Shown piece by piece: positions 855 to 16,333 of a DNA stretch of 64,000 nucleotides; the stretch's first letter is position 1, and each line of letters opens with the position of its first letter. The notes beneath the pieces were generated by a model. It was not told where the DNA came from. It did not search any database and was given only the letters and a program-made list of their open reading frames with translations. This DNA comes from Gloeomargarita lithophora Alchichica-D10 (lineage in GTDB: Bacteria; Cyanobacteriota; Cyanobacteriia; Gloeomargaritales; Gloeomargaritaceae): NCBI RefSeq assembly GCF_001870225.1, contig NZ_CP017675.1, positions 1,251,796 through 1,315,795 of the forward strand, written 5' to 3'. Position numbers and translations under genes: made by a program.

Positions 855-942
855 TTATACAGATTGATTTTGCTGTTCCCAGAAGGCATAACGAAGGAAA
901 TTAAAAGCCAGATTTTTCAAACCAATGGCCACTTTTACCCTA
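855..942 (-). pseudogene. C-terminal remnant of a transposase
   Basis: Translating the minus strand from 942 to the stop at 855-857 gives a tail containing NLAFNFLRYAFWEQQ, typical of the end of an IS4/IS5-type transposase. It is a different element from the IS5 copy that follows: the TA at 941-942 is the target site of that IS5 copy. It is therefore an older remnant into which IS5 inserted. Confidence 0.5.
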
Positions 943-957
943 GGTCATGTTGATCTT

Positions 958-1462
958 TTATTTAAGCCAAAAAAGGGCACCGACAAGGTAGAGAAAGCTC
1001 AAGAAGTTTCTTGCCAATTTATCAAAACGAGAAAATAGATGTCGGTACTGCTTTAATTTGTGAAAAAAGCATTCGATTAAATGCCTCTCTTTGTATAAAT
1101 GTTTATCATAATGCCGCTGTGTTTTTCTATTCTTTTTAGATGGAATGACTGCGTGGTCTTCCCCTATTTTCTCAATCAACTTATTGGCATCATATCCTTT
1201 ATCCCCGATGACTTTTGTATTTTCCTCTTGCCAGTTCTCTATCAATTCTTCCCCTTGAGTAATATCATTTCTTTCTCTTCCCGTGACTCTCAATTCTAGC
1301 GGATTTCCCAATCCATCTACACTCCCATGAATCTTAGTGCTATATCCCCCTCGGCTTCTCCCCAAGGCTTCCCTTTTTTCCGGCAGCACACGGGTGCGCT
1401 CGAACCGTAGTTGAATCAATAATTAGATGCTCTAAATCAGGCTCTTCAATGAAATACTTGAA
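958..1462 (-). pseudogene. IS5 transposase, distal part (end of orfA plus orfB)
   Basis: Minus-strand reading from 1462 gives FKYFIEEPDLEH followed by IIDSTTVRAHPCAAG, the first catalytic aspartate block of IS5 DDE transposases. After the A-run near 1375 the frame shifts into orfB (958-1419), with SRGGYSTKIHGSVDGLG, IGDKGYDAN (second D) and the ECFFHKLKQYRHLFSRFDK block holding the catalytic E. The N-terminal part lies beyond the inserted cassette, starting at 2381. Confidence 0.8.
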
Positions 1463-1546
1463 CGCCTCAAATCAGCGGTGGCAGACAACCTCAAACTCAG
1501 CACCAGTGGCTTTCAATCGTCCGCTGCATTTGAGTTGTTATGCGGC
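1463..1546 (-). other. attC-like recombination site of the cassette
   Basis: Minus strand from 1546: GCCGCATAAC (R''-like), then CTCAAATGCAGCGG, a central region of about 40 bases, CCGCTGATTTGAG, and GGCG at the cassette edge. The two arms (1466-1478 and 1521-1534) pair perfectly over 13 positions apart from one unpaired base at 1527, the extrahelical base seen in folded attC sites. The missing half of the R' box, TTATGCGGC, is at the other cassette end (2372-2380) and matches GCCGCATAA. The site begins 11 bases after the inferred ancestral vapC stop (1558-1560). Confidence 0.8.
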
Positions 1547-1581
1547 GACTGTACTTACTATACTTCTACTTGTAAATTTTC

Positions 1582-1687
1582 TATAGCTAAACATGTAAAG
1601 GTTGACATAATAACATGGGTCGCAGGGCACCGCCCCGCATTGGTTTTCCGAAATCTTGAGACGACAACCTTACTCTACTTAGCTATA
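1582..1687. repeat. MITE family 2 copy inside vapC
   Basis: A 106-bp unit bounded by TATAGCTAA and TTAGCTATA, nearly identical to 61832-61937 and, inverted, to 15258-15363. The core contains GGTCGCAGGGCACCGCCCC, able to form a hairpin. Removing the unit while keeping one TA restores eight codons at the end of vapC, so it inserted at TA with a 2-bp duplication. Confidence 0.85.
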
Positions 1688-2054
1688 CCTCTTGAAAGTG
1701 AGCATCGCGTGTGACCAAAATCAAAGCGTGTTGTAGTGCAAGGGCTGCGATCCAGACATCATTCTCAGGCAATGGACGACCTTTGAGCCTCAATTTGTTC
1801 TTGACTTCGCCATACTGCCTAGCCGTTTCAGCGTCACAAACTAATATTGTGCTATTGGCAACCAACTCATCAACTTTTGCTAAATTTGCGCTAATTCGCC
1901 CTGATTTCTTGGCTCCATAACACAACTCACCAATGACAATACTTGGAATGAAAACTTCGTTGGCTTGAGCGAGATGGTCTTTGACGATCGCCTCACCTGC
2001 AAACAGCGCAATAACGATATTGGTATCGAGCAAGAATCTACCACTCATCGACAT
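1683..2054 (-). CDS. vapC: PIN-domain toxin VapC, C-terminus replaced by MITE
   Basis: A PIN-domain ribonuclease, toxin of a type II pair. Visible acidic PIN residues are D in LLDTNIVIALF near the N-terminus, E in IGELCYGA, and D in PENDVWIAALA and VTRDAHF. It overlaps the antitoxin gene by 17 bases. The stop TAG (1683-1685) belongs to the end of a MITE. Without the MITE the protein would continue HFQEV-ENLQVEV and stop at 1558-1560, a normal PIN ending. The present protein lacks about seven residues after the last conserved acidic block and may still be active. Confidence 0.85.
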   Translation of the reverse strand: MSMSGRFLLDTNIVIALFAGEAIVKDHLAQANEVFIPSIVIGELCYGAKKSGRISANLAKVDELVANSTILVCDAETARQYGEVKNKLRLKGRPLPENDVWIAALALQHALILVTRDAHFQEV

Positions 2055-2265
2055 CTACCCGTTCACAATCTTGCTCAATCACTTCACGCATTAAATGGAG
2101 ATCGTCAAGGGGGATTGAACCCGCAAAACGCAACAATCGCTGCCCTGGCGTACCTCGCACTTCCACTTTTGCCAACGCCCGAACAAATTCAAGTACCTGC
2201 CATTGCAAATGCTGCGGCATCACCTTCAATTGTTCAACTACTTCGTCAATGATAGGGATGTTCAT
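2038..2265 (-). CDS. vapB: Antitoxin partner of VapC (75 aa)
   Basis: A small acidic protein (MNIPIIDEVVEQLK...) resembling DUF2281-type antitoxins: short helices with VVEQL and LQWQVLEFVRAL. It is placed directly upstream of and overlapping vapC. The ribosome site AAAAGGAGGACAG just before ATG 2265 is strong, in keeping with the antitoxin being made in excess. Both genes lie within the integron-like cassette. It presumably binds VapC and represses the pair. Confidence 0.7.
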   Translation of the reverse strand: MNIPIIDEVVEQLKVMPQHLQWQVLEFVRALAKVEVRGTPGQRLLRFAGSIPLDDLHLMREVIEQDCERVDVDEW

Positions 2266-2380
2266 ACTGTCCTCCTTTTCACCATCCTACACCGCTTATC
2301 TAGGGAGCAGTAAGGGATTAGTTTTCAGTACCGACGAGGTATTGGGAGGAATGTCTTCACCAGGAACCCAAGCCGCATAA

Positions 2381-2610
2381 CATCCGTTCCCACACCCCAA
2401 AACGACTCCACCGATGAAATCTTTGATAAATTGTTGACCATTTGCCATATGCTTCTGGGAGATAACGCCAAGGAGCACCAAAGCCATCCAGAGAACTGCT
2501 TCAATAAACTGTTTACATCCTGCTTCTTTACCAATATTGACTCTGTCTTCCGTCTGTAAAAAACTAAGTATCTTCTGCCATCTGTATTCATCTAAAAAAA
2601 CAAAACTCAT
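2381..2610 (-). pseudogene. IS5 transposase, proximal part (orfA N-terminus)
   Basis: From ATG 2610 the frame reads MSFVFLDEYRWQKIL and so on. A 4-base deletion then shifts it out of frame. In the shifted frame the conserved GAPWRYLPEAYGKW block and FHRWSRFGVWERM can be read up to the exact junction at 2381. Rejoined to 1462 it reads VWERM-FKYFIEEPDLEH, the continuous IS5 sequence. This is strong evidence that 1463-2380 is an insertion. Confidence 0.8.
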
Positions 2611-2663
2611 CTTCTTCTCTCCATAAATAATCCTCTCTATTTTACATAAGATCAACACGACCT

Positions 2664-2789
2664 AGGACACCTCTAAAAATCAGGTCGCAGGGATACCGCC
2701 CCCGTTATTGGTTCTCCTGAACATTGGTTCGCTAATCAGATGGGATAGCGATGAGATTCTCGGTTGATTCCCATAAATAAAGGCACCTT
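2664..2789. repeat. Diverged MITE family 3 copy
   Basis: Starts AGGACACCTCTAAAAAT, followed by a core like GGTCGCAGGGATACCGCCCC and TTGGTTCTC, ending near CATAAATAAAGGCACCTT. It directly abuts the left end of the IS5 element. Internal bases have diverged from the better copies at 26529-26647 and 31763-31903. Confidence 0.55.
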
Positions 2790-10779: not shown

Positions 10780-10809
10780 TCAGGGAAAAAAACTGTTAAA
10801 TTGCTTCTC

Positions 10810-11760
10810 TTATTGTAACAAGTCTCCCTGCCCTTGGCTTTCCTGGGCGATTTGTTCTAGTTGCCAGCGCATCTCCTCCGACAGGGAAATAAATTTGCCC
10901 AGCCCCCGAATCAGCCGTTTCAGGTCTTCGCGGATTTGTGGGTCGCCGGTGATTTGATCCAGGTCGTTCGCCACTTTCCGAAAGGCGACAAAGGTGGATT
11001 TGGCCGTATCGAGGGTGCTATTGACGCGCACCAGACTGGTCTGGATCGTCCGTTGATTGGTGCGAATTAGGCCGGTGGTGGCATCGGCGGCGGTGCCGAC
11101 TTTGACCGCTGACCGTTCCACCTGTTGGGCGGCGGCTTGCAACTCCTTGAAGGAAGTCCGGGCATCCTGGGTCACCTGTTTTACATCCTTGGTTAGGCCA
11201 CCCAATCCTTTGGTCAATGCGGCTAAGCTATCCAAAAATTCGGAATTATCCAGTTGTTTGACAATCGTGGCTGTGGCTTGAATCAGGTCATCAAAGGTGG
11301 GGCTAGTCTGGCCTTCCAATTGGGCACCCTGGCAGACGATTTGTTGAGCGTCGCAATCCTGGCTCCGGGGACCCGCACCGATCATTGCCCCATCCAAATC
11401 TTCTCGGGGGCTAATATCCACAAAAGTTTGACTCACCAACCCGCCACTGAGGGCACGAAACCGGCTGTTTTTGGGAATGATGGTATTTTTGTTAGTAATT
11501 TCCACCATCACCAACACTTGATTTAGGTCTGGTTGAATGGCGACCACCCGCCCCACATCCACCCCCCGCAGGCGCACGGCGGCTCCTACGCTCAGACCAC
11601 CGGCATTGCCAAAGGCGAGTTGAAAGCGATAGCGGTTGGCATTAAAGGCGATATTTTCTACCCATACCACTACTCCGACCACCAGGGCGATGGTGGCAAC
11701 GATAAATAAACCCAACAATCCTTCCCGTTGGCGGCGTGATGGTTTAGTGGCGGTGGTCAT
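10810..11760 (-). CDS. MCE-domain (MlaD/TGD2-like) lipid-transport protein
   Basis: Substrate-binding component of an ABC lipid-transport system at the envelope. An N-terminal transmembrane helix (LLGLFIVATIALVVGVVVWV) is followed by the MCE domain (NAGGLSVGAAVRLRGVDVGRVVAI, SRFRALSGGLVSQTFVDIS) and a long helical C-terminal half. ATG 11760 (MTTATKPSRR) is preferred over the in-frame ATG at 11769. No ATPase or permease partner is adjacent. Confidence 0.88.
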   Translation of the reverse strand: MTTATKPSRRQREGLLGLFIVATIALVVGVVVWVENIAFNANRYRFQLAFGNAGGLSVGAAVRLRGVDVGRVVAIQPDLNQVLVMVEITNKNTIIPKNSRFRALSGGLVSQTFVDISPREDLDGAMIGAGPRSQDCDAQQIVCQGAQLEGQTSPTFDDLIQATATIVKQLDNSEFLDSLAALTKGLGGLTKDVKQVTQDARTSFKELQAAAQQVERSAVKVGTAADATTGLIRTNQRTIQTSLVRVNSTLDTAKSTFVAFRKVANDLDQITGDPQIREDLKRLIRGLGKFISLSEEMRWQLEQIAQESQGQGDLLQ

Positions 11761-15165: not shown

Positions 15166-15257
15166 TCTTCTGTCTGCAAAAAAGCTAATATCTTCGGCCA
15201 TCTGTATTCATCTAAAAAAACAAAATTCATCTTCTTCTCTCAATAAATATTCTTCTC

Positions 15258-15363
15258 TATAGCTAAGTAGAGTAAGGTTGTCGTCTCAAGATTTCGGAAA
15301 ACCAATGCGGGGCGGCGCCCTGCGACCCATGTTATTATGTCAACCTTTACGTGTTTAGCTATA
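15258..15363. repeat. MITE family 2 copy (inverted)
   Basis: Inverse complement of 1582-1687 and 61832-61937 with only a few changes. It is inserted in the left end of the IS5 derivative, with TATAGC ends. Confidence 0.85.
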
Positions 15364-15389
15364 TCTTGCATAAGATCAACACAACCTAA

Positions 15390-15607
15390 TAGATGGGCTA
15401 CGGGTTTGTCAACAAAAAATCTTGCAAACAGATACAACGGTGCACTAACAAATCCTAGACCATTGAGTATCATTGCCTTGACAATGGTGCCTGTTGTTAG
15501 TTTTTGCTCCCCACGGCAAGGAATTGCTTGATCTATTATTTCTACTAGCCCTATATCACCCCTGCAGTAATGCCTAGATGATCTAAATTCTTGATTTCTA
15601 AGTCCAT
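15390..15607 (-). pseudogene. Transposase N-terminal remnant (DUF4277, IS1634-type)
   Basis: From ATG 15607 the minus strand reads MDLEIKNLDHLGITAGVI, then is frameshifted. In the next frame LVEIIDQAIPCRGEQ, TTGTIVKAMILNGLGFVSAP and LYLFARFFVDKPVAHLL match the N-terminal domain of IS1634-type transposases. It breaks off at the IS5 derivative. Confidence 0.7.
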
Positions 15608-15668
15608 TTCTTCCCCCCTGTCTTCAAAAAATTATTTTACCCCCCCTTTACCCTGCGAAATGTGGGTT

Positions 15669-15787
15669 CAATTTATAGAGGTGCCCTATACTCTTAAAGT
15701 TTTTTAAGGTCAGGGTGGTTATCATAGAATTATGTTACCGAACGCTAGAATAATTGAGATTTTATCTTGTGGAGTAATGATTGATCC
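15669..15787. other. Intergenic with MITE family 3 end
   Basis: Contains ATTTATAGAGGTGCCCTA (about 15671-15688), an isolated family 3 end, then an AT-rich leader of the next gene. No gene is seen. Confidence 0.5.
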
Positions 15788-16333
15788 ATGAACCCCCGCC
15801 TTTTTTACTTTACCGCTGGCACCCAGGGCACCTGGAAAATTCGGGACATTCGCCCGCTGATCGGGGCAGGGTTGGACTGGGGAGAACGGTTAGCCGTGAC
15901 CCAAGACCCCCCCACGGAGCAGGCGGCGTGGTGCTTGCGGGGCATCAAAAGCAACGAACGCTACGTCACCCGCACGGAAAAAGAGCAATTGCTGGCGATC
16001 CAGGAGGGGTTAGGCCGTCCTGCTTCCCGCTATGCCTCCCTGATCCCGATTCGCAAGCAGGCTACCTGGTGGCAAATGACCCAGGATGAGCGGCGGGCGA
16101 TTTTTGAAGAGCAATCCCAACACACGGGCAATGGGTTGCGCTACCTGCCGGAAATTGCCCGCAGTTTGCACCATTGCCGGGATTTGGAGGGGGTGGAACC
16201 TTTTGATTTTTTGACCTGGTTTGAATTTGCTCCAGAGGATGAACCGGCCTTTGATGCCCTATTGGCGGAAATGCGCGCCACGCCGGAGTGGGATTTTGTG
16301 GAGCGGGAAGTGGATATTCGGCTGGAACGTTGA
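15788..16333 (+). CDS. Chlorite-dismutase-like haem protein (short, cyanobacterial type)
   Basis: Member of the Cld/HemQ/DyP fold in its short form, 181 aa, as known from Cyanothece. His112 in QSQHTGNGLRYLP and Arg125 in PEIARSLHH keep the 13-residue spacing of the proximal His and distal Arg of that protein (from memory, 114 and 127). FDFLTWFEFAPEDE is also conserved. Start ATG 15788. True chlorite turnover in vivo is not implied; the physiological substrate of cyanobacterial Cld is unsettled. Confidence 0.85.
   Translation: MNPRLFYFTAGTQGTWKIRDIRPLIGAGLDWGERLAVTQDPPTEQAAWCLRGIKSNERYVTRTEKEQLLAIQEGLGRPASRYASLIPIRKQATWWQMTQDERRAIFEEQSQHTGNGLRYLPEIARSLHHCRDLEGVEPFDFLTWFEFAPEDEPAFDALLAEMRATPEWDFVEREVDIRLER

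Follow-up and report, generated by a model that had tools for sequence, protein, structure and literature searches.

The window analysed here, a stretch of 64,000 nucleotides from the chromosome of Gloeomargarita lithophora Alchichica-D10, raises the question of how a toxin-antitoxin gene pair came to lie within the transposase gene of an insertion sequence. With high probability, the answer is that an integron integrase inserted a vapBC gene cassette with its attC site into a resident IS5 transposase gene, using a G^TT triplet there as a secondary site, or attG.

The inserted block and its empty site

The host element belongs to the IS5 family (944-2661, minus strand; TIR GTCRTGTTGATCTT; DDE_Tnp_1, PF01609, 1.9e-15); it is flanked on the two sides by the repeat CTAG (940-943 and 2662-2665), which from its sequence is probably the target duplication. 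A 918-bp block, positions 1463-2380, oriented as a minus-strand cassette, splits this element and interrupts its transposase gene at G^TT. As the initial annotation had proposed, both junctions read G^TT on the minus strand: at the left one (2379-2381) the G belongs to IS5 and TT to the cassette, and at the right one (1461-1463) the G belongs to the cassette and TT to IS5. Excision of 1463-2380 in silico gives a continuous IS5 sequence, with a cut point that is ambiguous over the three shared bases GTT, as are the ends of the cassette. Regarding the reading frame, said to be rejoined exactly by this removal, the local stretch VWERM-FKYFIEEPDLEH is indeed restored, but the transposase is not whole from end to end: a frameshift upstream of the cassette site is common to all aligned copies (cassette-bearing, empty and congeneric), and downstream of the site the frame shifts again at an A6 run.

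The target reads GATG^TTC, and its triplet fits GTT, in line with the GNT target rule (PMC10127599); being located in a transposase gene, it is neither attI nor attC, which is what defines an attG-type target. An uninterrupted IS5 copy exists in the same genome (G000:C1:2189704-2190495); it is 98% identical and reads GGAACGGATGTTCAAGTATTT across the site. The insert is also absent at this point from all three IS5 copies aligned from two congeneric genomes (G002 and G004), each of which has a 4-base gap just upstream of ATG^TT. The empty copies that had been suggested as a check were thus found both in the same genome and in congeners; they confirm the insertion and its precision, and they date it to after these IS copies had diverged. 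As for an orthologous empty locus, a search of the congeners for the left flank and for the element's 5' half returned only dispersed IS copies and repeats, with no common flank.

These copies also bear on the reverse order of events, in which IS5 took vapBC as a passenger, or moved around a cassette that was already there. The IS ends and the CTAG repeats are intact around the composite, as this order would have it; however, the cassette sits inside transposase codons, its ends equal those of cassettes in arrays, and, above all, the IS copies of G000, G002 and G004 lack it, with vapBC being present in no other IS5 copy seen. This order of events is scarcely conceivable, and the empty IS copies led to rejection of the view that IS5 had vapBC as a passenger from the outset.

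With a cassette inside an IS, a single DNA segment combines two forms of mobility, and there is no sign that the IS moved the cassette. The idea that the transposon could carry the cassette onward found no support, the composite of IS5 and cassette being present in a single copy in the genome and the transposases being frameshifted; since the frame is broken in the IS5 copies, the cassette-bearing IS would need a helper in trans to move.

Genes of the cassette

On the minus strand, the order of the cassette is TTATGCGGC, a VapB-like ORF, a PIN toxin ORF, a repeat, and GCCGCATAAC...G. The VapB-like antitoxin ORF (2038-2265, minus strand, 75 aa) has a weak NCBIfam match that lies below the cutoff, with a score of 14.9 bits against 60; the VapC PIN-domain toxin ORF (1683-2054, minus strand, 123 aa) matches PF01850 above the cutoff (1.5e-21). 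The repeat is MITE-like, 106 bp long (about 1582-1687), has the ends TATAGCTAA and TTAGCTATA, and occurs in about 45 copies in the genome; related copies with TATAGCTAA ends (about 80%) were noticed in G002 and G004 as well. It is missing from the aligned homologous cassettes. In this one the VapC frame terminates at a stop codon supplied by the MITE, and the last residues are replaced, so that VapC is shortened and its C-terminus is encoded by the MITE end. The arrival of the MITE at the 3' end of vapC may have preceded or followed the move of the cassette. The repeat was missed by the initial annotation.

Structure of the attC site

The attC site occupies positions 1463-1546 (minus strand) and comprises R'' (1537-1546), L'' (1521-1534, with the bulged base at 1527), L' (1466-1478) and the crossover G at 1463; the cassette 5' end, TTATGCGGC (2372-2380, minus strand), contributes the portion of the R' box with which attC becomes complete in the circular form. 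The 10-mer GTTATGCGGC occurs only twice in the 64 kb, once as the inverse of R'' (1537, plus strand) and once where the insert ends on its far side (2372, minus strand), and these are exactly the two places at which the far end had been claimed to complete the R' box as an inverse. Once the ends are joined, the inverted repeat with one extrahelical base noted beside the toxin-antitoxin ORFs takes the form of an R/L hairpin, in which R'' and R' pair as a palindrome, L'' and L' form a stem with a single bulged base, and a 2+2 spacer is left unpaired. The joined site has a fold z of -4.1 and -4.8 on the two strands, and none of 200 shuffles folded as well; in the linear arrangement, with IS5 on the R' side, the fold was no better than that of shuffles, good folding being confined to the joined circular form.

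A scan of window positions 900-2700 against Rfam gave no match, and the attC model was therefore built within this analysis, first from seven sites of the present genome and then, as a second covariance model, from 14 cyanobacterial sites with the attC of the IS5 cassette held out. Failure of such a model had been named as grounds for abandoning the cassette reading; the held-out model matches the site with 69 bits (E 6.7e-16 in 3.05 Mb), the sixth best score in the genome. The helix covaries: it has 43 double-change cells, against 0 of 500 shuffles and 3 to 7 when the partner is slid, and 11 pairs with two-sided changes, for a covariation score of 0.36 compared with 0.04-0.07 when the partner strand is slid.

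In the classical, well-studied attC sites, the extrahelical base is a G on the bottom strand, a trait that is typical and not strictly defining. In the IS5-cassette attC the bottom strand has a C instead, and the G is on the cassette-sense strand; the same holds for 14 of 14 cyanobacterial attCs (alignment A4, column 23).

The same cassette in other cyanobacteria

VapC relatives up to 92% identical occur across cyanobacteria, distant ones included. At eight loci (L122, L123, L124, L128, L134, L135, L137 and L167), an attC follows the vapC stop by about 35 bp; L124 and L135 are from one genome, so that the eight represent at least seven other cyanobacterial genomes, and these loci lie mostly within multi-attC arrays. 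In most of them, homology to the insert begins exactly at GTTATGCGGC, with nothing clear before it, L122 and L135 differing from the insert at the 5' end; all eight end, and diverge from the insert, after the G^TT of attC. Hence the expectation that the same vapBC cassette would be found elsewhere was borne out, and three features of an integron cassette are present: attC pairings with spacer and bulge, G^TT boundaries, and occurrence in arrays. Next to many other VapC relatives the model found no attC, so vapBC exists in both forms. A partly decayed vapBC cassette was also observed at the same place in the two congeners G004 and G002 (L111:7162-7872 and L112 around 5758), between ABC-transporter and rubrerythrin-like genes, named by ORF reading; the flanks of that locus lie far apart in the present genome.

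In the vapBC cassettes, inheritance of the body and inheritance of the attC type seem not to go together. The attC of the IS5 cassette shares 78-87% identity with five resident attCs that belong to other cassettes and only about 53-69% with those of the homologous vapBC cassettes, the bodies of which are 78-86% identical to its own; likewise, in L135 (L135:4406-4499), the attC of the vapBC cassette and that of an unrelated cassette are 93% identical. At least three attC types are found with the same vapBC body, that of the IS5 copy being common in its host. From this disagreement, which rests on nine cassettes, an exchange between body and attC seems to have taken place at R'' or close to it; tentatively, the sequences suggest that bodies and attC sites might reassort as modules at the R'' box, while faster evolution of attC may instead account for the weaker attC differences. 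How cassettes acquire host-type attC sites is, to our knowledge, an open question in integron biology; if true, reassortment at R'' could be how they gain them.

The putative host integron and other scattered cassettes

The search of the complete genome that had been recommended, for intI and further attC sites, yielded many attC sites and two IntI-like genes, one located at about 834.8-835.5 kb and the other at about 839.2-840.0 kb. The N-termini of the two genes (839617-840006 and 835311-835607) match TIGR02249 with E values of 2e-45 and 3e-31; the match spans the first 130 model positions with 155.6 bits against a cutoff of 265 bits, and that of the copy at 834.8-835.5 kb starts at position 32. 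The match covers the N-terminal halves of both genes, which is why the 265-bit cutoff is not reached. TIGR02249 is unspecific at low scores, with matches in 14 of 14 control genomes; only strong N-terminal matches adjoining attCs were therefore counted. Of 59 genomes included in the search as relatives, 20 encode an IntI that exceeds the curated cutoff, in agreement with the literature (PMC8618304, PMC8352920).

The IntI-like genes adjoin an attC array of one orientation that extends from 837.8 to 869.7 kb (837815-869717). A second attC cluster is found at 135-141 kb, and scattered sites are located at 1253 kb (the IS5 cassette), 1862-1865, 2174 and 2812-2815 kb, together with weaker ones. In locus L020, two intI-like genes (10783-11544 and 15173-16042) flank a short array that contains an AAA ATPase and an HNH-like ORF, which resemble Septu, along with a peroxiredoxin and a DUF4258 ORF; the first of these genes adjoins psaB, as does an intI remnant in G002, behind another transposase gene.

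Of the scattered sites, that at 2174 kb (L024:4315-5093) is a second case: a DUF4160/DUF2442 cassette bounded on either side by G^TT separates murI from crcB, and in G004 the cassette is missing, the flanking alignments being about 9 bp apart. Two further observations concern a pair of attCs that, together with a PIN-type toxin-antitoxin and a DNA methylase-like ORF, follows an IS200/IS605-like pair on its downstream side (L023:5454-8195), which is a cassette cluster beside an IS, and a scattered attC after a MazF/PemK-like ORF (L117:5635-5727), a candidate single toxin-antitoxin cassette.

The murI-crcB cassette is also relevant to whether illegitimate or homologous recombination put the IS5 block at GTT triplets by chance. 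The junction shares only 3 bp, which would suit such an event; against it, both ends coincide with cassette ends that were defined independently, and the second scattered cassette has the same kind of junction, leaving a chance event very improbable.

Mechanism and origin of the insertion

Insertion by an integron integrase is thus backed by the precise junctions and the empty site, the cassette boundaries, the structure and covariation of attC, and the presence of intI-like genes and an array in the genome; each runnable check put forward with the initial annotation (intI and attC, the fold, empty IS5 copies, vapBC elsewhere) supports it. As for the individual steps, the cassette would have been inserted as a circle, presumably through its bottom attC strand, the enzyme was most likely the host's own IntI, encoded at about 834-840 kb, and the source was probably the host's own array rather than the outside.

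In a variant, the cassette came from another cell, as a circle or with incoming DNA, and went straight into the IS5 site, possibly by means of a foreign integrase. The VapC identity of up to 92% to distant cyanobacteria is in its favour, as is the absence of a second copy of the vapBC cassette from the host array; on the other side, the attC is of the type common in this genome, even if that type also occurs in other cyanobacteria, and the cassette holds a resident MITE, which may have come later. Such an origin has an appreciable probability but is, overall, rather doubtful.

For the mechanism of the insertion, the off-target activity that has been published for integron integrases offers the best account. 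Insertion of cassettes at secondary sites (Recchia et al. 1994, cited in PMC12901181) and at attG (Loot et al. 2024, Nat Microbiol 9:228, cited in PMC11023631 and PMC12901181) likewise places an attC cassette outside attI and attC at G^TT, with low target specificity; compared with these insertions, as given in the citing articles, the IS5 case is natural and cyanobacterial, and its target is an IS of which the genome also holds an empty paralogue. It shares with a CALIN of one attC (IntegronFinder 2.0, PMC9024848) the lone attC cassette away from intI, but here an empty site documents the insertion, and intI-like genes are present in the genome as well. The chromosomal integrons of cyanobacteria, too, combine IntI with an attC array (PMC8618304), and the same vapBC is an array cassette in other cyanobacteria, whereas the IS5 cassette lies outside the array; an attC model for Cyanobacteria has been published (PMC8352920). 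The off-target plasmid rearrangements of IntI1 also have GTT-type junctions outside the integron, but these are experimental inversions and not cassette insertions (PMC10127599).

In conclusion, off-target cassette insertion and cyanobacterial integrons are already published, and the IS5 case is an unusually clean natural example. Off-target insertion has been shown in the laboratory, and judging its frequency needs natural cases that show the empty site together with the ends of the cassette and the integron of the host. At least two such cases, in IS5 and between murI and crcB, come from this genome, along with several more candidates, in a phylum whose integrons are known but have received little study.
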